Below are positions 2,733-47,807 of a stretch of DNA of 64,000 nt, one piece after another (positions within the stretch are counted from its first letter, which is position 1; every line of letters begins with the position of its first letter). The notes below the pieces were generated by a model. The model worked only from the letters and a program-made list of their open reading frames with translations, had not been told where the DNA came from and searched no databases. A program made the translations under genes and the position numbers. This stretch comes from Fischerella sp. PCC 9605 (GTDB lineage Bacteria > Cyanobacteriota > Cyanobacteriia > Cyanobacteriales > Nostocaceae). The DNA lies in NCBI RefSeq assembly GCF_000517105.1, contig NZ_KI912148.1:124001-188000 (forward strand), read 5' to 3'.

Positions 2733-3962
2733 ATGAACAGCTTGGAACAGCTGCGGCAAGCAGAACAGGCACTGTTACAGATTTTTTCTGGAATTGACGC
2801 TCAGGTCAAGGGAAATCTTCATCGAGTTTTAAATGCCTTTCGCCATCATAGAGTCGGCGCACACCATTTTGCAGGTGTCACAGGATACGGTCACGATGAT
2901 TTAGGCCGAGAAACTTTAGACAAAGTCTTTGCGGAAGTTATGGGTGCTGAGGCAGCTGCTGTACGAGTGCAGTTCGTTTCTGGAACCCACGCGATCGCCT
3001 GTGCCTTATTTGGTGTCCTCCGTCCTGGTGACGAGATGCTCGCGGTGGCTGGTGCTCCCTATGACACATTAGAAGAAGTAATAGGTTTACGGGGTCATGA
3101 TCAAGGCTCCCTTATAGAGTTTGGCATTCGCTATCGCCAATTGAATCTTACTCCAGAAGGAACAGTAGATTGGCAAGCTTTAAGCCGAGCGGTGGAGGAT
3201 AACACTAGTTTAGTCTTAATTCAGCGCTCTTGTGGCTATTCCTGGCGTCCTAGTCTATCAATTGCCGATATAGAAAAAATTATTCACTTAGTCAAGCAGC
3301 AAAATCCTAACACGATTTGTTTTGTTGATAATTGCTACGGCGAATTTATCGAAACCCGTGAACCTACCCACGTCGGAGCCGATCTCATGGCGGGTTCCTT
3401 GATTAAAAACCCAGGCGGTACTATCGTTACCGCTGGCGGTTATGTCGCCGGTCGCGCTGATTTGGTAGAGGCGGCTGCGTGTCGGCTTACTGCGCCTGGT
3501 ATCGGTAGTTACGGTGGTGCTACTTTTGACCAAAATCGCCTCCTCTTCCAAGGCTTATTTCTCGCACCTCAGATGGTAGGAGAAGCCATGAAAGGCACTC
3601 ACCTAACTGGTTATGTTTTTGACAAGCTTGGTTATCCAGTTAATCCCGCACCCTTTGCTCCCCGGCGTGATGTGATCCAGGCAATTAAACTCGGTTCCGC
3701 TGAGAAGCTAATAGCTTTTTGTAAGGCGATACAACAAAATTCACCCATCGGTTCTTATCTTGACCCTATTCCTGATGAAATGCCAGGTTACGAAAGTAAA
3801 GTCGTTATGGCTGGCGGGACATTTATTGAGGGTAGCACATTAGAGTTCTCTGCTGACGGCCCGTTGCGAGAACCCTATGTGGTTTATTGCCAAGGCGGGA
3901 CTCATTGGACTCATGTGGCGATCGCCCTGGAAGCCGCAATAGAAGTGGTGGGGCCAGCCTGA
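2733..3962 (+). CDS. Methionine gamma-lyase / aluminium-resistance family PLP enzyme
   Basis: About 409 residues. I chose the ATG at 2733 because a purine-rich GAGGGAC lies just before it; the frame is open upstream to 2667. The protein matches the family annotated as aluminium resistance protein or methionine gamma-lyase, a fold type I PLP group. A probable PLP lysine is in GSLIKNPGG, and the glycine-rich segment VSGTHAIACALFG should hold the phosphate. Its true substrate in cyanobacteria is not established. The gene stands alone on its strand and shares a short divergent promoter region with desC. Confidence 0.85.
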   Translation: MNSLEQLRQAEQALLQIFSGIDAQVKGNLHRVLNAFRHHRVGAHHFAGVTGYGHDDLGRETLDKVFAEVMGAEAAAVRVQFVSGTHAIACALFGVLRPGDEMLAVAGAPYDTLEEVIGLRGHDQGSLIEFGIRYRQLNLTPEGTVDWQALSRAVEDNTSLVLIQRSCGYSWRPSLSIADIEKIIHLVKQQNPNTICFVDNCYGEFIETREPTHVGADLMAGSLIKNPGGTIVTAGGYVAGRADLVEAAACRLTAPGIGSYGGATFDQNRLLFQGLFLAPQMVGEAMKGTHLTGYVFDKLGYPVNPAPFAPRRDVIQAIKLGSAEKLIAFCKAIQQNSPIGSYLDPIPDEMPGYESKVVMAGGTFIEGSTLEFSADGPLREPYVVYCQGGTHWTHVAIALEAAIEVVGPA

Positions 3963-4339
3963 AGAAGATGGAGAGTGAAGGCAATTTTAGATCTTTAGAT
4001 TGTTAACTGTGGTGGGGTAGGCATCTTACCTGCCTTTATTGTTTATTAATGATTTCAGAAAACTACAAGCATAATCTACCTGCTAATGAAGAGGACACGG
4101 GGACACGGTAGACTTCTTGCAGAAGTCGGGTAGGGGCAAGGTGAAAACGAAAGATTTAGGCAAATTTATCTATTCAATCAACTTTAGTTAGAGGAAATCT
4201 ATCTATTTCGTTGAGATGGAATGAGAGACGTTTTTCAGATGTCGATCTTTTATGAAATTTCTACGATCAAGTACACAAGTACAAGTAAATTCTGCTCAAC
4301 TACTATTCAAAAATTTAATGTTTTTAAGGAGTTTGATAT
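3963..4339. other. Intergenic region with a small inverted repeat
   Basis: No convincing gene is seen. A hairpin GACTTCT-TGC-AGAAGTC lies near 4108-4124, in a context of the kind that recurs between cyanobacterial genes. The last 20 bases hold the ribosome-binding site (AAGGAG) of the 82-residue gene. Confidence 0.5.
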
Positions 4340-4588
4340 ATGCACGGACAAATGTGTTGGCTTCCTAGGCTTGGCGGTAATGGAGAGAAAATTTTGCACT
4401 TGAGAACTGCACCTAATCAGCCCTGGCAACCATACAGAACTTTTCCAGAAGTTGTACCAGATTATGCAATACCTGGAGGTTCCAAAGGATGGGCAACCTA
4501 TCAAAAATTGCTGCTAGCAGGCTGGACTTTAGTTTCTACTGCACAAGCGCAAGCCTCTTTAATTGTGCAGGAAAAGAAGACCGCCTAA
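4340..4588 (+). CDS. Small hypothetical protein, 82 residues
   Basis: The frame has a good AAGGAG ribosome-binding site about eight bases before its ATG, which supports it over the overlapping frames. The protein has no clear membrane segment or known motif; the centre (VPDYAIPGGSKGWATYQKLL) is rich in aromatic and glycine residues, and the C-terminal part is mildly hydrophobic. It lies convergent with the HlyD-type gene. I do not recognise it. Confidence 0.55.
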   Translation: MHGQMCWLPRLGGNGEKILHLRTAPNQPWQPYRTFPEVVPDYAIPGGSKGWATYQKLLLAGWTLVSTAQAQASLIVQEKKTA

Positions 4589-4668
4589 AGCTATTAGGTG
4601 GGTGCATCTTGGGGGGGACGACCTCCAACTTGATACTGGTACTGCGTCATAGATTGCTAGCGACTCAT

Positions 4669-6165
4669 CTACCTGACAGAAAATGCTTCGCTGAATCTGC
4701 GAGTCACTGGTTCTAAGATAAAAGTCAAAACCGACTTCTTACGGGTGACAATTTCACCATTAGCAGCCATACCAGGAGTAAATCCTACTTCTTTACCCCG
4801 AACTGCGATGGAGTGTTTGTTCAGTTTAATTCTGGTGGGAAATACTAAACCTAATTCCTTATCAACGATCGCGTTTGGACTGACTTGCACGACTTCACCA
4901 TCAACAATGCCAAATTCCTGGAACGGGAAAGTCGCCATTTTTACCTTTGCTTTCATACCTTCACGAATAAAGCCGATATCACGGTTGAGGACTTTCACTT
5001 CTAAGAGTAGTTCTTCTCCATCCGGCAAAATCGACAGTAATTCTTCACCCGATTGCACTGGGCCTTTTGTGGCTTTGACTCTGTAAATTGTTCCAGACAC
5101 AGGAGCTTGGATAGTTTCTAATTGTCGCTGCTTTTGGGCTTGGTCGAGTTGACCTTGAACGTTAGTTAATTCTTCTTTACGCTTGTTTGTTTGAGTTAAT
5201 ATTTCACTGAGACGTTCTGACTCTAAACGCTGTGCTTGATTTTTAGCCGCTTGATATGATGCTTGTGCTTGCAGAATTTCTTGCTTTTGGGCATCAATAT
5301 CTTTTTCTAAAGATGTGACTTTATCTTGCGCTTCAGTAACTTTATTTTGACCGTTTGTAATTTCATCGTTAGCCCTAGTGATTTCAGCATTGGCACGATT
5401 GAGTCTGTCTTGTGCTTCCAGGTAATCTATTCTCGGTATCGCACCAGAATTATTAAGCGTACGCAGGCCTTGCTCTCTTTTTTGAGCAATCTCTAGGTTG
5501 CTGGTAACTTTTTCCTGAATCTTTTCGGCGTTAACTAGGTTTGTTTTGGCGTTGGCAAGGCTGCTTTTAGCATTGATGAGGTTATCTTGCAACCGAGTCA
5601 GGCGGACTTTAGCTTGCTCGATTAGCGCCGCCTGACGATTTGCTTCTGCTTCCGCCGCAGCTTGACGGGCTTTGTAGTCTTTCAAGCGTGAGGTTAAAAG
5701 TTCATCTTGCAGCTGCGTACCTGTATTTTTAGCTCCCGTGCGTTCCGCATCCAAACGCCGCAAGTCTTCTTGAATCAGTCTGGCAGATTTAGCCAAGCGG
5801 ATCACATCAGATTGCTGTAAATCTGGATCGCGTTCTATCAACGGCTGACCTTTAGTGACGCGATCGCCTTCTTTAACTCTCACCGCTAAAATCGAGCCAT
5901 TCCCCAACGATGTTACCGGTCGTACTTGGGTAGAAGCGATTAACTCCCCCGATGCAGTCGCCACTTCATCTACTTGGGAAAAATGCGCCCAAGCGATCGC
6001 TCCTAAAACTACTACACTAATTGTTCCTGCTAATAATCTTGTGTATAAAGGCGGCAATTCCTGTACCGCCTTACCCAATTCATAAGAAAGTTGTTCGGTT
6101 GGTTTAGCAAATGCCTGTTTTGTTTGACGTGCTTGAGCAGCATTTGCAGCCAGGGAATATCTCAT
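4669..6165 (-). CDS. HlyD-family membrane fusion (periplasmic adaptor) protein
   Basis: 498 residues. There is a cytoplasmic N-terminus, one membrane helix at about 44-65, then a lipoyl/barrel half (SGELIASTQVRPV, VKEGDRVTKGQPL), a very long coiled-coil hairpin at about 115-340 rich in Ala, Gln, Glu and Lys, and the second half (IQAPVSGTIYRV). Proteins like this connect an inner-membrane ABC exporter to an outer-membrane channel in type I secretion. No ABC or TolC-like gene is next to it, so its partner must be elsewhere. It is transcribed alone, with repeats upstream. Confidence 0.9.
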   Translation of the reverse strand: MRYSLAANAAQARQTKQAFAKPTEQLSYELGKAVQELPPLYTRLLAGTISVVVLGAIAWAHFSQVDEVATASGELIASTQVRPVTSLGNGSILAVRVKEGDRVTKGQPLIERDPDLQQSDVIRLAKSARLIQEDLRRLDAERTGAKNTGTQLQDELLTSRLKDYKARQAAAEAEANRQAALIEQAKVRLTRLQDNLINAKSSLANAKTNLVNAEKIQEKVTSNLEIAQKREQGLRTLNNSGAIPRIDYLEAQDRLNRANAEITRANDEITNGQNKVTEAQDKVTSLEKDIDAQKQEILQAQASYQAAKNQAQRLESERLSEILTQTNKRKEELTNVQGQLDQAQKQRQLETIQAPVSGTIYRVKATKGPVQSGEELLSILPDGEELLLEVKVLNRDIGFIREGMKAKVKMATFPFQEFGIVDGEVVQVSPNAIVDKELGLVFPTRIKLNKHSIAVRGKEVGFTPGMAANGEIVTRKKSVLTFILEPVTRRFSEAFSVR

Positions 6166-6169
6166 AGAA

Positions 6170-6286
6170 TTTTGTTAGTTGTTGGTAGTTAGTAGTTAGT
6201 AGTTAGTAGTTAGTAGTTGGTAGTTAGTAGTTAGTAGTTAATTTTTTACCACTAACCACTATCCACTATCCACTAACCACTAACCT
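6170..6286. repeat. Short tandem repeat array (GTTAGTA heptamers with inverted complement)
   Basis: Units of GTTAGTA/GTTGGTA run for about 70 bases and are followed by complementary-type units (CCACTAA, CCACTAT). The two halves can pair into a long imperfect hairpin between two genes on the minus strand. Confidence 0.8.
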
Positions 6287-30954: not shown

Positions 30955-32022
30955 TTAGAGAAAGTACAAGTTAACTATAAGGGTGAACAAGAAAGTCAAT
31001 AACGCCGCTAAAGCAAATAAGTAAAATATAGCCCTGGGTTTAAATATTGTTAACATTAAACCAACACCTTTGAGGTCAATCATTGGTCCAAATATCAAAA
31101 ATGCTAATAAAGAACCACTGGTAAAAGTTGAGGCAAAAGACAGAGCAAAAAAAGAATCAACAGTAGAACAAATTGACACCACTGCTGCTAATACCAACAT
31201 GGCGGTGATGGAACTAATCGGGCCTGCACCTAAACTGAGAATCAACTCGCGGGGAGCTACAACTTGAATAGTCGCTGCGATCGCACTGCCAATTACCAGT
31301 ATTGCCCCTAATTCTCGTAGTTCTTGCACAGTATTTTCGAGTGCTAACCGTAATTTAGCTCCTAAGGGTTTACTGGAACTGGGTGTCGTAGTGTCGATAT
31401 TAGTAGATTCCAAGCGCATAGTTTGTCCTGCTTGTCCTACTCCCAGTAAATAGGTTCCTGACTGCAATAAAGCAGGTATACCTGATTCCTGTTGGATTTG
31501 GGAACGTTTCGGGCGGCGCTTTGGTTGTAGCTCTGAGGGTGGGTTAAATTTCAAATAACGAGCGATCGTTGGGTGAACTACAGGAGTTAAATCTTTTTGA
31601 AAACTAAAGACAAAGCCAATAATAGTCGCGATTAAGAGGGAAAATACTACTCTTAATACTACTATTTCTGGCTGATCGCGAAATGCTATCCAAGTCGCCC
31701 AAATGACGATGGGATTAACTGTTGGTGCTGCTAGCAAAAAGCCAATTGCTACCGATGTAGGTACTTTTTGCATCAACAATCGCCGTGCAACTGGCACGTT
31801 ACCACACTCGCACACAGGAAACAAAAATCCCACCATACTGCCTACTAAAGCACCCAGTAACGGGTTTTTAGGCATTTTTTCTACCAATTTGCGCTCATCT
31901 ACAAAAAACAGCAGCAAACTGGAGAACAATACCCCCAGCAGCACAAAAGGCATCGCCTCGACCAGCAGACTCAAAAATAGAGTAAAACCATTGTTAAGTT
32001 TATTCATGGGCGTCGCTGTCAA
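30955..32022 (-). CDS. DUF318/ArsP-type permease (YcgR-like)
   Basis: 355 residues with eight or more membrane helices in two halves separated by a basic cytoplasmic loop (about 165-215). The conserved PVCECGNVPVARRL motif near 70 carries the two cysteines typical of this permease family, and a matching SICSTVDSFFALSF occurs in the second half. Relatives include ArsP (organoarsenical efflux) and YcgR. Together with the YcgQ-like gene it forms a two-component transporter; the substrate cannot be told. Confidence 0.85.
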   Translation of the reverse strand: MTATPMNKLNNGFTLFLSLLVEAMPFVLLGVLFSSLLLFFVDERKLVEKMPKNPLLGALVGSMVGFLFPVCECGNVPVARRLLMQKVPTSVAIGFLLAAPTVNPIVIWATWIAFRDQPEIVVLRVVFSLLIATIIGFVFSFQKDLTPVVHPTIARYLKFNPPSELQPKRRPKRSQIQQESGIPALLQSGTYLLGVGQAGQTMRLESTNIDTTTPSSSKPLGAKLRLALENTVQELRELGAILVIGSAIAATIQVVAPRELILSLGAGPISSITAMLVLAAVVSICSTVDSFFALSFASTFTSGSLLAFLIFGPMIDLKGVGLMLTIFKPRAIFYLFALAALLTFLFTLIVNLYFL

Positions 32023-40144: not shown

Positions 40145-40350
40145 AGGTGAAGTAATTTAAAGAAAGCTTAATTCAGTACAATCAATACCACAAAGTATTC
40201 AAAGGGGGACTTTAGTCAAGATGTTGTGTTACTGTCTTTTTCGGATAAAGCCTCCGAGTTTTAGATGCAATAAATTACGCATAGCCAGAACACTATGAAT
40301 CGCTGGTTTATTGCCAATGCTGCTCCTTTCTTGTTTGTGGGTTGAGCCTT

Positions 40351-41370
40351 ATGTCTGACCTTCCATTTACACTAGATCAGTTACGTATTCTCAAAGCGAT
40401 CGCCGCAGAAGGGAGCTTCAAGCGTGCCGCTGATAGCCTCTACGTTTCCCAACCTGCCGTGAGCTTGCAAGTACAAAACCTAGAACGGCAATTAGATGTT
40501 CCCCTATTTGACCGTGGAGGACGTCGCGCCCAATTGACCGAAGCAGGACATTTACTGCTGAGCTATGGTGAAAAAATCCTCAGCTTGTGTCAGGAAACCT
40601 GCCGCGCCATTGAGGATCTACAAAATCTCCAAGGCGGTACGTTAATTGTCGGCGCTTCTCAAACTACCGGTACTTATCTTTTGCCCCGGATGATCGGGTT
40701 GTTCCGACAAAAATACCCAGATGTGGCGGTGCAATTGCACGTCCACTCTACCCGCCGTACCGCCTGGAGTGTCGTGAACGGGCAAGTGGATCTGGCTATC
40801 ATCGGCGGTGAAATCCCTGCTGAGTTGGCAGAATCATTGGAAATTATTCCTTATTCAGATGATGAATTAGCACTGATTTTACCTGTACTCCATCCCTTTA
40901 CCAAACTTGACACAATCCAAAAAGAAGACCTATATAAATTACAATTCATTGCCCTCGATTCCCAATCGACAATCCGCAAAGTTATTGACCAGGTATTAGC
41001 ACGCCATGATATCGATACACGGCGTTTGAAAGTGGAAATGGAACTTAATTCTATAGAAGCTATTAAAAATGCTGTGCAATCCGGCTTGGGGGCGGCCTTT
41101 GTTTCCACGTCGGCGATCGCTAAAGAATTGCAAATGGGAGTACTGCACTGCACTCCCATTGAAGGTGTTATTGTCAAGCGGACGCTGTGGCTGATTTTTA
41201 ATCCCAACCGTTATAGATCCAAGGCAGCCGAAGCTTTTAGCCGGGAAATTTTACCCCAATTTGCTGCCCCTGGATGGAATATGGATGTGTTAAAATCGTC
41301 ACAATATCATAGGAGTTTGGCGATTAATACAACTGTGGAGACAGACGCATCCCACTCTGATGAAAGTTAA
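40351..41370 (+). CDS. rbcR: LysR-type regulator RbcR
   Basis: 339 residues from the ATG at 40351; a TTG three codons earlier is less likely. The winged-helix N-terminus ([20 protein letters not shown]) and the effector-binding domain ([29 protein letters not shown]) match the RbcR/Ycf30 group, which activates rbcLS (Rubisco) and responds to Calvin-cycle metabolites. It is next to ndhF/ndhD, and the related NdhR controls NDH-1 genes, but the sequence is closer to RbcR. The C-terminal 20 residues are a variable tail, and short repeats follow. Confidence 0.88.
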
Positions 41371-41474: not shown

Positions 41475-42905
41475 ATGGAAATTTACTGCACTCGTCCTGG
41501 CTGTCCCCGCCCACTCAATCATTTTTCGGATTTAGACGACCATTCCACACTAAGAACAGTCCAGCAAAAATACTGCACTGCTTGTGGAATGCCGTTGATT
41601 TTGGTTGGGCGCTATTTGCCGATCAAGCTGCTGGGACAAGGTGGTTTTGGAGCAGCATTTTTAGCACGCGATCGCTATACTCCTGGAATGCGTCGGTGCG
41701 TGGTTAAACAATTCCAGCCTGCGGGCAATTTAACCACCACTCAACTGCAACTAGCACAAGATCTGTTTGAGAGAGAAGCTGTAGTTTTAGAAGAGATAGG
41801 TAGTCAACACGAGCAAATTCCCGATCTATTTGCTTTCTTCCCGGTGATAGTTCCTAGCTTCTTGCATCGGGGACAGCAAGACCAATTTTTTTATCTCGTC
41901 CAAGAATATATTGATGGACAAAACCTAGAAGAGGAATTAGACCAAAAAGGCAAATTCTCAGAACAAGAAGTATTAGAAGTTCTGCGAGCAATTCTTCCGG
42001 TATTGCAGTTTGTCCACAACAAAAACATTATTCACAGAGATATCAAACCCTCCAACATCATGCGCCATCGGAACGGCAAACTTTACTTGCTGGATTTTGG
42101 CGCAGTTAAGCAAGTTGCTAATGCACCCTCTGGGGTAGGTAGTTCTTCTACTGGCATTTATTCTTTGGGATTCGCACCACCTGAGCAAATGTCTGGGGGA
42201 CGAGTATTTCCACCCACAGACTTATATGCTTTGGCTGTTACTGCTGTGATGTTATTAACGGGTGAAAAAGATGCCACTGAGCTATTTGATGCTTATAGTA
42301 ACCAGTGGAAATGGCACGAGCGTGTTTCCATCAGTCCCAAGCTGGCTAATATTCTTGACAAGATGCTTCTACCTGCTGCAAATCAACGCTTTCAGTCAGC
42401 CCAAGAGGTTTTGGAAGCCCTCGATTCACCTCCACGGCCGATAACTCCTACACAAGTCCATCCCCACCAACCCAAGCAATTACCGCAACCACACGCCATA
42501 CAAACTCAACCTCCACAGCAGCGGTCAGTGTCTCGAACTCCGCGTGTAGCACCATTGTCTACTTTTGAATTGTTAATAGGAGCTGGATTTAGTGGTTTTG
42601 AGGGTGGATTAATCGCGATCGCCCTGTTTAGTTTGCTTAATTCTTCAAGAATTACTTTCGCTGCTACTGCTGTGATTTTAGCAATATTGATTTTTGGTCA
42701 AAAGCAACGGTGGATTGAAAAAATAGAAATGCTGGTGATAGCAGTAGCTACCTTTGGGGCTATTTCGTATTTTCCCTTGTTGCGGGCAGGTCTGAGCATC
42801 GAGCAAGTGGCGATTATAACTGTTGGGGCTGGGTTAGTGGCGATCGCTGCGACAGCACTATTTCGTTTGATTTATAAATTATTATCTCTTCTTTTTTCAC
42901 GATAA
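41475..42905 (+). CDS. Serine/threonine protein kinase with N-terminal cysteine motif and membrane tail
   Basis: 476 residues. A 4-Cys zinc-like N-terminus (CTRPGC at 5-10, CTACG at 34-38) precedes a complete kinase domain: GQGGFGAAF glycine loop at 55-63, Lys78, catalytic loop HRDIKPSNIM at 187-196, DFGA at 207-210 and APPE. A proline/glutamine linker at about 320-365 leads to four hydrophobic helices at about 370-470, so the kinase is tied to the membrane. It heads a run of three binding-protein genes on the same strand, which suggests joint signalling. Confidence 0.9.
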   Translation: MEIYCTRPGCPRPLNHFSDLDDHSTLRTVQQKYCTACGMPLILVGRYLPIKLLGQGGFGAAFLARDRYTPGMRRCVVKQFQPAGNLTTTQLQLAQDLFEREAVVLEEIGSQHEQIPDLFAFFPVIVPSFLHRGQQDQFFYLVQEYIDGQNLEEELDQKGKFSEQEVLEVLRAILPVLQFVHNKNIIHRDIKPSNIMRHRNGKLYLLDFGAVKQVANAPSGVGSSSTGIYSLGFAPPEQMSGGRVFPPTDLYALAVTAVMLLTGEKDATELFDAYSNQWKWHERVSISPKLANILDKMLLPAANQRFQSAQEVLEALDSPPRPITPTQVHPHQPKQLPQPHAIQTQPPQQRSVSRTPRVAPLSTFELLIGAGFSGFEGGLIAIALFSLLNSSRITFAATAVILAILIFGQKQRWIEKIEMLVIAVATFGAISYFPLLRAGLSIEQVAIITVGAGLVAIAATALFRLIYKLLSLLFSR

Positions 42906-43037
42906 CTGTAAAACCAAAGTGATGCAAATTTTATTTACATCAATTATTTAGGTAGCATTCCGATCGATATAATTTAATTTGATAATTTCTAAGATTTTTA
43001 ATTTTCAATTTTTAAGTTTAATTTCTAAAAACTGTCT

Positions 43038-44453
43038 ATGTCCCAAAAAAACGAAACAGCTGTTCTCGTCTTGGCTTTGTTAATTACTTTGGGATTAGTG
43101 GGCGGTGGAGCGTGGTTGTTAAAAGATAAGATATGGCCACAAAATTCTCAAGATGCTGGTAGTTTATTGCCATCCAGCAATCAACGGATTTCAGACCGCA
43201 TCAGTTTTGGTGAAAAAATTTTAACTCCCGGCGAAGCTTCCCCAGCAAAAAAAGAAGGTGTAGCGGCGTTAGCATCCGGTAATTATGACAAAGCGGTTCC
43301 AAACTTGGAAGCAGCCCTAAAACTAAATAAAAACGATCCAGAGGCGCTGATATTTCTGAATAATGCCCGTATAGGCTCTGCCAAAAGCTATACAATTGTT
43401 GCTACTGTACCAATTGGCAGTGACCTAAATACCTCTTTGGAAATTCTACGCGGTGTTGCTCAAGCTCAAAACGAAATCAATTCCTCTAAAGTAATTAAAG
43501 GAATTCCTTTCAAGGTAGGTATAGCTAACGATGATGATAACCCAGAAATTGCTAAACAGATTGCTTCATCGTTAATCAAAAATCAACAAGTATTAGGTGT
43601 AATTGGCCCTGCTGCTAGCGATACTACCTTAGCCGCAGGCACTATCTATACTTCCGGACGACTTGTTGCTATTTCCCCTGTCAGCACTTCAGTCAAAATT
43701 TCTAACTTTAGCCGCTATATTTTTCGCACGGTTCCTAGTGATTTTATGGCGGCGAGGGCGCTAGCCAAGTACATGGTGGAAAATTTGCAGAAAACAAAGG
43801 CAGCGGTTTTTTTCAATTCTCAAAGTAGTTATAGTCAGTCTTTAAAATCTGAATTTGTCTCATCTGTCTCACTGGAAGGTGGACAGGTATTAAGCGAATT
43901 TGACTTATCCAAAACCAATTTTAATGCTGCTAAAAGTGTCGCACAAGCAATTAAGGAAGGTGCAGAAGTGTTGATGTTAGCAGCGACCACCGACACGTTA
44001 GATAAAGCGCTGCAAGTGGTGCTGGTGAACCAGAAACGGTTAAATCTGCTGGGGGGAGATGATGTTTATACGCCTAAAACTTTAGAAATTGGGCGAGAAC
44101 AATCAGTGGGAATGATAGTAGCAGTTCCTTGGCATATTGATAGCAATCCCAATTCCGATTTTCCCCAAAAGTCGTGGCAATTGTGGGGTGGTTATGTGAA
44201 TTGGCGAACAGCTTTAGCTTATGATGCTACACGCGCTTTAATAGCAGCCATAGAACGCAATCCCACACGCGTCGGCGTACAACAAGCCCTTTCTTCGCCC
44301 GACTTTTCTGCCACAGGTGCTTCCGGCACGATTCGGTTTTTAGCATCAGGTGATCGCAACGCCCCAGTTCAGTTAGTGGAAATTATCACTAGAATTCCCT
44401 CTCGTTCTGGTACTGGCTATGATTTTGTGCCAGTGATACCATCAGGCAATTAA
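43038..44453 (+). CDS. Membrane-anchored ABC-type solute-binding-like protein (Leu/Ile/Val-binding fold)
   Basis: 471 residues. The N-terminus MSQKNETAVLVLALLITLGL is a single anchor helix without a lipobox cysteine. A short TPR-like piece (KAVPNLEAALKLNKNDPEAL) follows at about 80-110, and then a type I periplasmic-binding fold (VLGVIGPAASDTTLAAG, AISPVSTSVKISNFSRYIFRTVPSD, DATRALIAAIE). No permease or ATPase gene is near. It begins 132 bases after the kinase, so it is more likely a sensor than a transporter part. Confidence 0.82.
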   Translation: MSQKNETAVLVLALLITLGLVGGGAWLLKDKIWPQNSQDAGSLLPSSNQRISDRISFGEKILTPGEASPAKKEGVAALASGNYDKAVPNLEAALKLNKNDPEALIFLNNARIGSAKSYTIVATVPIGSDLNTSLEILRGVAQAQNEINSSKVIKGIPFKVGIANDDDNPEIAKQIASSLIKNQQVLGVIGPAASDTTLAAGTIYTSGRLVAISPVSTSVKISNFSRYIFRTVPSDFMAARALAKYMVENLQKTKAAVFFNSQSSYSQSLKSEFVSSVSLEGGQVLSEFDLSKTNFNAAKSVAQAIKEGAEVLMLAATTDTLDKALQVVLVNQKRLNLLGGDDVYTPKTLEIGREQSVGMIVAVPWHIDSNPNSDFPQKSWQLWGGYVNWRTALAYDATRALIAAIERNPTRVGVQQALSSPDFSATGASGTIRFLASGDRNAPVQLVEIITRIPSRSGTGYDFVPVIPSGN

Positions 44454-44649
44454 AAATTAAACGAAATTTAAACAATTAACCAATCCTTAACCTGAATAGA
44501 TTACAAGATGGGAAATTGCATTATTAACATGATGTGCGACTTTCTATTAATTCCTCCCTTTTTTTAGGAGGATAGAGGAAGTGAATACCCTTGAAAAGGG
44601 GCTAAAAATTTGCACAAGCGGTGTTAGTAGAAATAATTAAAAAACAGTT

Positions 44650-45687
44650 ATGTCCCAAAAAAATGAAACTACGGTTTTGCTTCTAGCCTTGTTGTTAACG
44701 CTGGGACTAGTAGGGGGTGTATTTTTGTGGTTAGCTAATACTTCAGGGATCAGATTATTCAATGCGAGAAATAACTTATCCCAACCAATTAAACAAGCCT
44801 ATTCAGAAAGTTTTGCCCAATTTCCTGAGGTTCCCTCTGGATTATTTAGCTATGGTGGTAGCACTACTTGGGCACCGATTCGTAAAGAAGTTGATACAGC
44901 AATTCAAACAGTCTTTCCCCGATTTCAACTCCGCTATACCGATCCAACCATAGGTGCACCTGGTTCTGGAAGTGGTATTAAGATGCTTTTAAATAACCAA
45001 CTGGCTTTTTCTCAGTCTTCACGTTCGATTAAGGATGAGGAATATCAAAAAGCGCAACAGCGGGGCTTTACATTAAAAGAAATTCCTGTGGCAATTGATG
45101 GCATTGCGATCGCTGTTAATCCCAATCTCAACATCCCTGGTTTAACCGTTGCCCAACTACAAGATATCTATACGGGCAAGATTACCAACTGGCAACAGTT
45201 AAGCGGTCCAAATTTACCTATTACACCTTACTCTCGTCGTTTGGAAGAAGGAGGCACCGTAGAATTTTTTAATGAAAACGTCCTAGACGGAGAAAAGTTT
45301 GGTGTCAACGTTCAATTTATTCCCACAACGACAGAAGCTTTAAAAGAAGTGGCGAAAAATCCTGGGGGTCTTTACTACGCTTCTGCCCCAGAAGTAGTCG
45401 GACAATGTAGTGTAAAGCCTTTACCATTAGGGAGAACATCAGACAAACTGGTTCCTCCCCACAAAGAGCCATTTATTCTTCTTCAAGAGTGTCCGCAACG
45501 GCGTAACCAACTTAATGCCGCTGTCTTTCAGAACGGTGAATATCCCATCACCCGGCGATTATTTGTGATTGTCAAACAAAACGGTCAAAGCAGCGATCAG
45601 CAAGCAGGAGAAACCTATGCCAACTTGCTGCTTACAGAACAAGGTCAAGATTTAATCTCTAAAACTGGATTTGTCAGGATTCGATAA
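44650..45687 (+). CDS. Membrane-anchored PstS-like binding protein, first copy
   Basis: 345 residues. The anchor MSQKNETTVLLLALLLTLGL is followed by a type II phosphate-binding-like fold: FSYGGSTTWAPI, PGSGSGIKML, AFSQSSRSIKDEE, IAVNPNLNIPGLTVAQL, YTGKITNWQQL and a C-terminal NLLLTEQGQDLISK. Two cysteines (GQCSVK and LQECPQ) are shared with the next protein and may form a disulfide. It is about half identical by eye to the next gene, a tandem duplicate. The ligand is unknown; phosphate is only a family guess. Confidence 0.85.
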   Translation: MSQKNETTVLLLALLLTLGLVGGVFLWLANTSGIRLFNARNNLSQPIKQAYSESFAQFPEVPSGLFSYGGSTTWAPIRKEVDTAIQTVFPRFQLRYTDPTIGAPGSGSGIKMLLNNQLAFSQSSRSIKDEEYQKAQQRGFTLKEIPVAIDGIAIAVNPNLNIPGLTVAQLQDIYTGKITNWQQLSGPNLPITPYSRRLEEGGTVEFFNENVLDGEKFGVNVQFIPTTTEALKEVAKNPGGLYYASAPEVVGQCSVKPLPLGRTSDKLVPPHKEPFILLQECPQRRNQLNAAVFQNGEYPITRRLFVIVKQNGQSSDQQAGETYANLLLTEQGQDLISKTGFVRIR

Positions 45688-45692
45688 TTAAT

Positions 45693-45855
45693 TTTGGTTA
45701 GTGGATAGTGGTTAGTAGTTAGTGGTAATTGTTTACAACAAACTACTAACTACTGTACGGGCGAAGCATTTGTATAGGTATCTTTCCATGAAAACGAAAT
45801 ATATTCGTACAAATGCTTCGCTCCTACTAACTACCAACTACTAACTACTAACAAT
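45693..45855. repeat. Heptamer repeats flanking a small inverted repeat
   Basis: GTTAGTGG/GATAGTGG units on the left and ACTAACTACCAACTACTAAC units on the right enclose a 61-bp element at 45761-45821 with 14-bp arms (GCGAAGCATTTGTA and its complement). Confidence 0.75.
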
Positions 45856-45867
45856 CGATAAATTACT

Positions 45868-46920
45868 ATGTCACAAAAGAATGAAACACCAATTTTGATA
45901 TTAACCGTATTAATAACTGCTGGGCTAATCGCTGGTGGCTTTTGGTGGTTTAACAACAAAATAAGCTTTAACTTCAATCAAGTCACCAAACCTCAACCCA
46001 CAAATTCCAATCCTGATACCACCAAGCCAGAATCCAGTGGCAATACTTTTGCTTCCGTGCAAAATGTCCCCACGGGATTATTCAACTATGGAGGTAGCAC
46101 TTCTTGGGCACCGCTTCGACTCACAGTCGATTCGGCAATTCAAGCAGCGCGACCAGAATTTCGGTTACGCTATGTAGAACCCAGTAGTGTTACTCCCGGT
46201 TCTGGTACAGGCATTCACGCGTTAATTGACGGTCAACTTGCATTTGCCCAATCATCCCGGCCAATCTTAGACGAGGAGTTAAATCGTGCCAAGCAGCGTG
46301 GGTTTACTTTGCAACAAATTCCTATAGCAATAGATGGTTTGGCGGTAGCAGTAAACCCCAATCTCAATATTTCAGGACTAACAGTAGATCAATTAAGGTC
46401 TATTTACACTGGCCAAATCAATAATTGGAGCGAACTGGGTGGGCCCAATATTCCAATTAAGACATACTCTCGCCGCATCAGTGATGGCGGCACTGTAGAA
46501 CTATTTGTGCAAGACATCTTGGGTGGTCAAGCTTTTAGCTCAAATGTGGAGTTTGTTTCCACTACCACCCAAGCGCTACAAAAAGTGGCTGCTAGTCCTG
46601 GTGGCATATACTACGCTTCTGCCCCAGAAGTTGTTCCTCAATGTTCAATCAAGCCCTTGCCGTTGGGGCGAAGGCAAGGGCAATACATTCCTCCTTACCA
46701 AGAACCATTTGTCCTCCCTTCTGAATGTCCTGGTAAACGGAACAAGTTGAACATTGAAGCTTTCCAATCAGGAAAGTACCCGATTACCCGTAATCTGTTT
46801 GTGGTGGTCAAACAGAATAGTCAAACCGAGCAGCAAGCGGGTGTTGCTTATGCCAACTTACTGCTGACTGAACAGGGACAGGAATTGATTTCCCAAGCTG
46901 GGTTTGTCAAAATTCGCTGA
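45868..46920 (+). CDS. Membrane-anchored PstS-like binding protein, second copy
   Basis: 350 residues with the same plan as the preceding gene: anchor MSQKNETPILILTVLITAGL, a Pro/Thr/Asn-rich linker at about 42-62, then FNYGGSTSWAPL, PGSGTGIHAL, AFAQSSRPILDEE, YTGQINNWSEL and LLLTEQGQELISQ. The shared cysteines are in PQCSIK and PSECPG. The copy differs most in the linker. It ends the kinase cluster; hairpin-rich DNA follows to 47087. Confidence 0.85.
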   Translation: MSQKNETPILILTVLITAGLIAGGFWWFNNKISFNFNQVTKPQPTNSNPDTTKPESSGNTFASVQNVPTGLFNYGGSTSWAPLRLTVDSAIQAARPEFRLRYVEPSSVTPGSGTGIHALIDGQLAFAQSSRPILDEELNRAKQRGFTLQQIPIAIDGLAVAVNPNLNISGLTVDQLRSIYTGQINNWSELGGPNIPIKTYSRRISDGGTVELFVQDILGGQAFSSNVEFVSTTTQALQKVAASPGGIYYASAPEVVPQCSIKPLPLGRRQGQYIPPYQEPFVLPSECPGKRNKLNIEAFQSGKYPITRNLFVVVKQNSQTEQQAGVAYANLLLTEQGQELISQAGFVKIR

Positions 46921-47087: not shown

Positions 47088-47807
47088 CTAGCTGGCTCTA
47101 TTAATCGACTCTGCTGGTAAGCAAATCAAATTATCCCCTTGAGTGAGGATTAAACCACGTTGACGCAACTTGCCCATCAAGCGGGTGACTGTAACACGAG
47201 TCGAACCAATGGCACTGCCAATTTGGGCGTGAGTGAGAGGGAAGGGCAGACAATAACCGCGAATTACTTCTGGATCGGTTTCGCTCATTGCCGGCTCTCC
47301 ATATTCCTCAATCAACAATGTCAGGAACCCTAAGAGTCGGTCAATTGTGCGTCGTTGTCCTAAAGCACTCAGCCACAGCAGTTTGCGCTGGTGCTGATAT
47401 CTAAAGGCATCCATGACTTCCCGACGGAAATGAGGCCAGTTGTCTAAATCGTGCCAGTACATCCACAGCACCGCAGTTTGGTCAACGTGGGCGTAAGCTT
47501 GGAGCGTGAATGGTGACTGGGCAACAATTTCAAACGGCTGTCCTGCACCGACAAACCCTAAGAAAGCTTCTTCTGGGGTTCTGTTGATGCGTCGAGACGT
47601 TAACTGACTTGCTGTAGCACTCACTTGGGCAGTGCCTACCATTCGGATCGCACCCCTTTGCACCAAATACAGCAATCCAGGACGGGCTGGAATGCGCTCA
47701 TCTTTGCTAAAGGTGCGGCAGCGGTAGTGTTCTTGAGCCCAATCAAGAATCCGTTGCCAAGTTAAAAAAGGCCGTGATGCTTCAGAAAAGGAGGATGGAG
47801 ATTGCAT
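47088..47807 (-). CDS. Crp/Fnr-family transcription regulator, NtcA-like DNA-binding domain
   Basis: 239 residues. A cyclic-nucleotide-binding-like barrel is at about 30-130, but it lacks the cAMP-contact Arg-Ser pair, and the dimer helix follows. The recognition helix region (LTHAQIGSAIGSTRVTVTRLMGKLRQRGLI) is very close to NtcA, so it may read a GTA-N8-TAC-like site. The sensor half differs from NtcA. It probably belongs to the NtcA-like paralogue group of cyanobacteria. It converges with the binding-protein genes. Confidence 0.82.
   Translation of the reverse strand: MQSPSSFSEASRPFLTWQRILDWAQEHYRCRTFSKDERIPARPGLLYLVQRGAIRMVGTAQVSATASQLTSRRINRTPEEAFLGFVGAGQPFEIVAQSPFTLQAYAHVDQTAVLWMYWHDLDNWPHFRREVMDAFRYQHQRKLLWLSALGQRRTIDRLLGFLTLLIEEYGEPAMSETDPEVIRGYCLPFPLTHAQIGSAIGSTRVTVTRLMGKLRQRGLILTQGDNLICLPAESINRAS

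Follow-up and report, generated by a model that had tools for sequence, protein, structure and literature searches.

The genome of the cyanobacterium Fischerella sp. PCC 9605 (8.08 Mb) contains a gene cluster in which a membrane-bound Ser/Thr kinase is followed by three membrane-anchored binding proteins that all begin with the residues MSQKNET, and we ask here whether these proteins are receptors that pass outside signals to the kinase. The cluster lies in a 64,000-nucleotide stretch (contig NZ_KI912148.1, positions 124,001 to 188,000; hereafter the window, with coordinates counted from its first nucleotide) and reads, on the forward strand, LysR-type regulator, kinase, a Leu/Ile/Val (LIV)-type protein, and two PstS-type proteins, ahead of a convergent Crp-family regulator on the reverse strand. 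A preliminary description made from the sequence had placed the kinase and the three proteins on one strand, and their open reading frames lie as it described. We conclude that the cluster probably encodes a split, multi-input receptor kinase, an interpretation that draws on its anatomy and conservation, on linkage and co-occurrence, and on remnants and fused versions. Which stimuli activate bacterial Ser/Thr kinases has been called an outstanding question (PMC6069109); because probable receptors, their ligand classes, and a probable coupling element can here be read from the genome, that question becomes testable in culturable strains such as Chlorogloeopsis fritschii PCC 6912, which has the cluster (L077).

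The kinase has the features of 4-Cys-prefix Hanks-type kinases, with an NF045510 score of 46.7 bits against a cut-off of 24 and the expected active-site motifs. The prefix cysteines C5, C10, C34, and C37 are kept in 38 of 38 aligned kinases, as are K78, E101, H187, D189, K191, N194, D207, F208, and G209, with R188 present in 37. Both the kinase domain and its membrane location, as first described, are borne out by the Pfam match and by four predicted C-terminal membrane helices, which in an AlphaFold2 model (poor at residues 41-73) span residues 363-388, 391-410, 416-432, and 442-475. This four-helix module has no fold match, because only kinases are among the best 50 structure matches listed for the kinase model, and a search of the Fischerella genome at E <= 1 found only the window copy, although a first look at the same genome gave 60 kinase candidates.

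The three downstream proteins, numbered here in gene order, differ in their sensor domains as originally noted, one being LIV-type and two PstS-type. Receptor 1 has a type I binding fold by both Pfam and structure modelling (predicted local distance difference test score 88.6); its best PDB matches are 3ip5, 3hut, and 3td9, and the model resembles amino-acid and γ-aminobutyric acid binding proteins. Ahead of the binding domain it has a TPR-like hairpin, a feature that, like the Cys4 prefix of the kinase, the preliminary description did not mention. Receptors 2 and 3 are 59% identical, and the best solved structures for the PstS-type proteins are the phosphate-binding proteins 4q8r and 4gd5, followed by Sll0540 (9l8j); the closest named relatives are from Fischerella, Chlorogloeopsis, Tolypothrix, and Nostoc-type cyanobacteria. 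Ten residues – G69, S71, T72, G109, S124, R125, S195, R196, G202, and T203 – (numbered as in receptor 2) are identical in 17 of 17 aligned PstS-type receptors, and we take these to be the phosphate-contact motif positions.

These domain families are also those of transporter binding proteins, and the pocket-type motifs and folds resemble PstS and LivJ, so that the proteins could be membrane-anchored parts of ATP-binding cassette (ABC) transporters for phosphate and branched-chain amino acids, with the kinase only regulating uptake. We consider this improbable. In the 16 genes examined from 30955 to 54326 of the window, Pfam detected no ABC permease or ATPase, in line with the preliminary statement that transporter genes are absent, and these scanned neighbours include neither Liv transporter genes beside receptor 1 nor pstCAB beside receptors 2 and 3. 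The genome does encode PstC, with two genes over the cut-off located elsewhere, each adjoining its own PstS-type match. Receptors 2 and 3 also fall below the NCBIfam PstS cut-offs (TIGR02136, 148.2 and 153.1 bits, respectively, against 206.6; TIGR00975, 44.7 and 42.7 against 205), and a conserved tail and helix, as judged by eye, replace the typical signal peptide. Unlike PstS and LivJ, these proteins are membrane-anchored, have no ABC genes among the scanned neighbours, and belong to a group that is linked or fused to kinases.

All three receptors have the same residues 1-7, after which comes a single hydrophobic helix spanning roughly residues 5-32. For receptors 1 and 2 the identity over residues 1-27/29 is about 80%, and for receptors 1 and 3 it is 56% over residues 1-34, refining the earlier observation that the first 20 residues are nearly the same. 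A DNA pattern for MSQKNET, covering TCN-kind serine codons only, has three matches in the entire Fischerella genome – exactly the three receptors – and none for the reversed control; the three starts are not due to chance. In 292 genomes an MxQKNET pattern has 47 matches, distributed over 31 genomes, against one for the reversed control. We read 34 of these in 29 loci (L240-L268; loci are designated by L and genomes by G), and 31 mark the start of a LIV or PstS-type frame, three of these frames being clipped at the end of the stretch. Two others open a 61-residue frame beginning like the short PstS protein of relatives (L250) and a 32-residue chance frame (L267), and in L252 an MSQKNET start is found on a protein with pentapeptide repeats, recognised by Pfam, and no binding domain.

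Across the window and the named loci considered below, 86 exact MSQKNET starts are encoded by 32 DNA versions; because these differ at silent positions, the peptide itself is conserved and does not merely reflect recent DNA copying. Pairwise identity within residues 1-7 is 66% for PstS-type and 83% for LIV-type proteins, compared with 15% and 25% in the linker and 63% and 67% in the rest of the protein; the tail is thus no less conserved than the remainder, unlike the linker.

Linkage of kinase and receptors recurs in other genomes. Among 79 named loci, which were chosen by similarity to a PstS-type receptor so that the proportion is biased upward, 62 have a kinase upstream on the same strand, 13 lack one despite at least 2.5 kb of flanking sequence, and four are short-flanked. 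The gap between the kinase and the first receptor in the 62 ranges from 9 to 1411 bp with a median of 28, and is 33 bp or less in 37. Between one and four receptors are present (one in 14 loci, two in 27, three in 19, and four in two, counts that include some pieces of broken genes), arranged in 11 different orders. Viewed from the kinase, an anchored receptor is encoded by one of the genes that come next for 39 of 74 orthologs (31 of the 66 retrieved, the window, and seven further loci, all read by eye); in L222 the adjoining receptor is of a short PstS type. In L120 and L125 three extra genes separate the LIV gene from the last of the cluster's PstS-type genes.

Of the 66 kinase loci retrieved, 41 have a LysR gene immediately before the kinase; these comprise 30 of the 31 loci that have a receptor and 11 that lack an adjacent one (e.g. 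L188, L190, L191, L193, and L204-L207), and in many loci LysR and CRP genes flank the cluster. This pattern would be expected if the kinase were functionally paired with LysR and the receptors were passengers at a conserved LysR-CRP site, an explanation that is very improbable given that kinase and receptors are found together without LysR in L085 and L222, and also co-occur at unlinked places.

Co-occurrence was tallied in 104 of the 292 genomes, family f25 and genomes outside the class being left out. A kinase ortholog was defined by E <= 3e-108 and a match starting at residue 3 or earlier, and an anchored receptor by a match from query residue 5 or earlier, with only some of the tails read directly; the match lists behind the tally reach about E 1.8e-14 and 1.5e-49. 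With these criteria, which were set after the lists were seen, 67 genomes have both the kinase and an anchored LIV or long PstS receptor, seven have only the kinase, three only the receptor, and 27 neither, an association among related genomes that is uncorrected for kinship. It also holds within Fischerella's own family (corresponding counts 21/1/2/8) and in three bins of genome size, with 12/2/1/10 at 2-4 Mb, 15/2/0/10 at 4-5 Mb, and 25/3/2/6 at 5-6.3 Mb; the bin above 6.3 Mb (15/0/0/1) is little informative, having only one genome without the kinase. Kinase and receptor are not adjacent in 28 of the 67 genomes with both, and in G039, G099, and G203, for example, a full MSQKNET LIV protein is encoded elsewhere in the genome while the kinase stands alone. 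The co-occurrence with kinases that the preliminary description proposed as a check is seen, and extends to genomes in which the genes are unlinked. A looser anchor rule counts three kinase-less genomes as receptor-bearing (LIV matches that start at residue 13 in G129 and residue 9 in G177, and a PstS match starting at residue 11 in G070), giving 67/7/6/24. A first tally of 70/4/5/25 was dropped as biased, because it included short PstS-type proteins picked up by the long-PstS query, and a short query found such proteins in many kinase-less genomes missed before.

Remnants beside LysR in three of 12 kinase-less relatives suggest that kinase and receptors were lost jointly: PstS-type pieces are present in L355 and L356, with a CRP gene on the far side, and kinase pieces in L360. 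No remnants were seen in the examined stretch beside LysR in the other nine.

Binding domains of these types are also found in fusion proteins with kinase, caspase, CHAT, and AAA/STAND domains. L163 encodes a kinase and a PstS-type domain in a single chain of 651 residues, and a kinase and a LIV domain share one chain in L271, L272, L273, L279, L281, L282, and L285. Binding domains also follow caspase domains (L164, PstS-type; L275 and L284, LIV; and L270), CHAT domains (L155, L156, and L062), and AAA/STAND regions with TPR (L276, L277, L280, and L283). Kinase-like regions below the Pkinase cut-off precede the binding domain in L157 and L165 (weak matches) and in L158 and L159 (no match). Hydropathy analysis of 21 fused proteins located exactly one hydrophobic segment, just before the binding domain, in 18; a second segment is present in the L279 protein and in one L276 protein, and in L270 the segment is located elsewhere. 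Since the binding domains are the probable outside parts of these signalling and protease fusions, the free anchored binding proteins are likely to act as receptors.

Several related architectures were observed alongside these fusions. The L273 protein (3574-6276) combines a weak winged-helix match (Trans_reg_C, below cut-off) with its kinase and LIV domain. In L059, L060, L061, L160, and L161, PstS-type domains appear by eye to be anchored behind Cys-rich ribbon-like N-terminal segments. Elsewhere in the Fischerella genome, a second kinase (41% identical) is paired with a PstS-type protein whose membrane anchor differs (C11; L057, 7674-10012), and another genome has a similar pair (L168); both pairs speak for the split receptor kinase. 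The Fischerella genome also has an 870-aa CHAT and LIV-type protein that adjoins a kinase with hydrophobic segments (C9; L062, 5836-10248), and large frames with an apparent signal peptide followed by an N-terminal PstS-type domain are present in L328 and L342 (C6).

A mechanism for the split receptor kinase can be proposed. A single uncleaved N-terminal helix would hold each MSQKNET protein in the cytoplasmic membrane, the binding domain lying outside. For the seven-residue tail a cytoplasmic position is probable, since in related proteins the same N-terminal place is taken by a Cys-rich segment (read by eye in L059, L061, L160, and L161), a kinase, a caspase, or CHAT. The predicted ligands are amino-acid-like for the LIV-type domain and phosphate or a similar oxyanion for the PstS-type domains, and closure upon ligand binding may alter the packing of the anchor helix and tail on the four-helix module and thereby set kinase activity. 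With a common anchor and differing binding domains, one kinase could be fed by several receptors. LysR and kinase genes often stay together, which makes the LysR regulator encoded directly upstream a candidate, if weakly indicated, kinase target. Whether MSQKNET and its helix constitute a docking module, a code widespread in cyanobacteria through which interchangeable receptors, encoded near or far, share one four-helix kinase is a more tentative matter, and we regard it as possible but somewhat doubtful; if true, multi-input receptor kinases could be built by swapping ectodomains rather than kinases.

A number of observations weigh against the split receptor kinase, or against its simplest form. 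In the window, the intergenic gaps from kinase to receptor 3 are 132, 196, and 180 bp. Sites resembling promoters or terminators are no commoner at the cluster than in shuffled sequences. No adjacent anchored receptor was found for 35 of the 74 kinase orthologs, two of which are at a contig end, and seven of the 74 kinase genomes have no anchored receptor by the criterion used. Kinase-less G129, G177, and G070 encode free LIV-type proteins of about 470 aa with an N-terminus unlike the anchor, and in L218 a LIV protein beside the kinase bears an SGPPPIV-type anchor. Short PstS-type proteins have MSQKN-like anchors in three kinase-less genomes (G183, G268, and G282), and others have an SGPPPIV anchor regardless of the kinase. 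Three further genomes have a receptor beside a broken kinase gene, with the recognisable residues being approximately 1-38 and 243-470 in G064 (L289), 7-76 and 317-471 in G121 (L073), and 1-190 only in G103 (L053).

The first two of these broken kinases have lost most of the catalytic core and kept pieces of the prefix and four-helix module, with an intact-looking receptor adjoining; this may be plain decay, or the membrane part may be outliving the kinase function.

We also considered, and rejected, a link between the kinase and the type of anchor on short PstS proteins, as SGPPPIV and SAPPPIV anchors occur in kinase-bearing and kinase-less genomes alike. The own-family kinase genomes with a readable free short PstS protein (G048, G068, G078, G091, and G030) have one or the other, and that of G284 has neither anchor type. 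Since short PstS proteins with similar or different anchors occur without the kinase, the anchor is not strictly or exclusively tied to it, and the docking interpretation may be too simple.

These same findings bear on a further explanation, in which the shared anchor is a membrane-targeting signal only, the binding proteins are separate receptors or scavengers with other partners, the kinase receives its input elsewhere, and the neighbouring genes share a regulon. The MSQKN-like anchors in kinase-less genomes, the pentapeptide-repeat protein of L252, and the unlinked kinases would all fit such a role, but the co-occurrence of the kinase with LIV and long PstS receptors even where unlinked, the remnants suggesting joint loss, and the direct fusion of the same domains to kinases would not, and we judge it rather unlikely. 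The proposal in the preliminary description that the three proteins are sensors reporting to the kinase through a common anchor thus stands in part: linkage, unlinked co-occurrence, remnants, fusions, and the lack of ABC neighbours favour it, while an anchor that is not exclusive to the kinase, and the proportion of unlinked genes, do not. Anchors on unrelated genes without any kinase had been named there as what would speak against the proposal, and these were found to a limited extent, on short PstS-type proteins.

Comparison with known systems places the split receptor kinase in context. The GlnH-GlnX-PknG system of Corynebacterium and Mycobacterium is alike in that it probably puts a Ser/Thr kinase under the control of an extracytoplasmic binding protein, acting through a protein with four transmembrane segments (PMC9769921 and PMC6069109), and the window similarly encodes extracytoplasmic-type binding proteins with a Ser/Thr kinase. 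There, however, a lipoprotein does the binding and GlnX stands as a protein of its own between it and the kinase PknG, whereas here the four helices are inside the kinase and anchored receptors are encoded alongside, the cluster consisting of kinase and receptors only with no separate GlnX-type four-segment transmitter. We therefore do not count it as a member of that system, although it may work like one, the likeness being drawn from descriptions.

Kinases fused to ANF or binding-protein domains have been on record since 2005 and 2007, including cyanobacterial kinase-ANF fusions such as alr0344 and a Streptomyces kinase-binding-protein fusion (PMC1262709 and PMC2176072). These are single chains annotated by domain, in contrast to the split set described here, with its shared anchor and one kinase. 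Orthocaspases with an ANF receptor domain, reported in 2020 (PMC7475262), have the same domain type with a protease rather than a kinase effector. Sll0540 (PDB 9l8j) represents the short PstS type with a related domain, and short forms carry MSQKNET-like anchors in several genomes; they differ in also occurring without the kinase and are absent from the window cluster. Binding-protein input to Ser/Thr kinases is thus known, and as no description of a split set with a shared anchor was found in the open-licence literature searched, this arrangement appears to be new within that literature.

The presence of the arrangement in many cyanobacteria suggests that one bacterial kinase may hear several outside signals through plug-in receptors. 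If so, outside phosphate and amino-acid status would be linked to a kinase encoded beside a LysR regulator that, judging by locus tags, is probably a controller of carbon assimilation. The features of the locus are collected in Table 1.

Table 1. Coordinates and supporting evidence for the kinase-receptor cluster and its bordering regulators in the window.
Feature	Coordinates	Strand	Evidence and remarks
LysR-type regulator	40342..41370	+	Pfam HTH_1 and LysR_substrate; directly upstream of kinase
Membrane Ser/Thr kinase, 476 aa	41475..42905	+	Pkinase 2.1e-33
Cys4 zinc-ribbon-like prefix of kinase (C5, C10, C34, C37)	41487..41585	+	NF045510 4Cys_prefix_kin
C-terminal module of kinase, four predicted membrane helices	42561..42899	+	AlphaFold2 helices; hydropathy
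Anchored receptor 1, LIV-type periplasmic-binding domain, 471 aa	43038..44453	+	Peripla_BP_6 6.4e-33
MSQKNET tail and hydrophobic helix of receptor 1	43038..43133	+	Hydropathy 5-29; model helix 6-32, with low model confidence there
TPR-like hairpin of receptor 1, between helix and binding domain	43242..43373	+	Weak Pfam TPR, below cut-off; model helices 69-112
Anchored receptor 2, PstS-type domain and MSQKNET tail, 345 aa	44650..45687	+	PBP_like_2 1.5e-31
Anchored receptor 3, PstS-type domain and MSQKNET tail, 350 aa	45868..46920	+	PBP_like_2 5.2e-28
Convergent Crp/Fnr-family regulator, right-hand border of cluster	47088..47807	-	Pfam HTH_Crp_2 and Crp; border in many named loci

Farther neighbours recognised by Pfam include NADH-dehydrogenase subunits, thioredoxin, NnrU, a HAD hydrolase, and DNA polymerase I. 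An ArsP-type predicted permease (30955-32022, reverse strand), 9 kb away, is the sole transporter-type gene among the scanned neighbours.

The LysR regulator is putatively PacR/RbcR-like, judging by published locus tags, and the Crp/Fnr-family regulator putatively DevH-like; the two are presumably orthologs of PacR and devH, given the like arrangement of the genes. In Anabaena PCC 7120, PacR (rbcR) is all3953 and devH is alr3952 (PMC12052932 and PMC7699953). For the Crp-family regulator, identity in the named loci has a median of 99.2% among the 62 best matches (minimum 25%, paralogs included), beside medians of 88.9% for LysR and 80.6% for polA.

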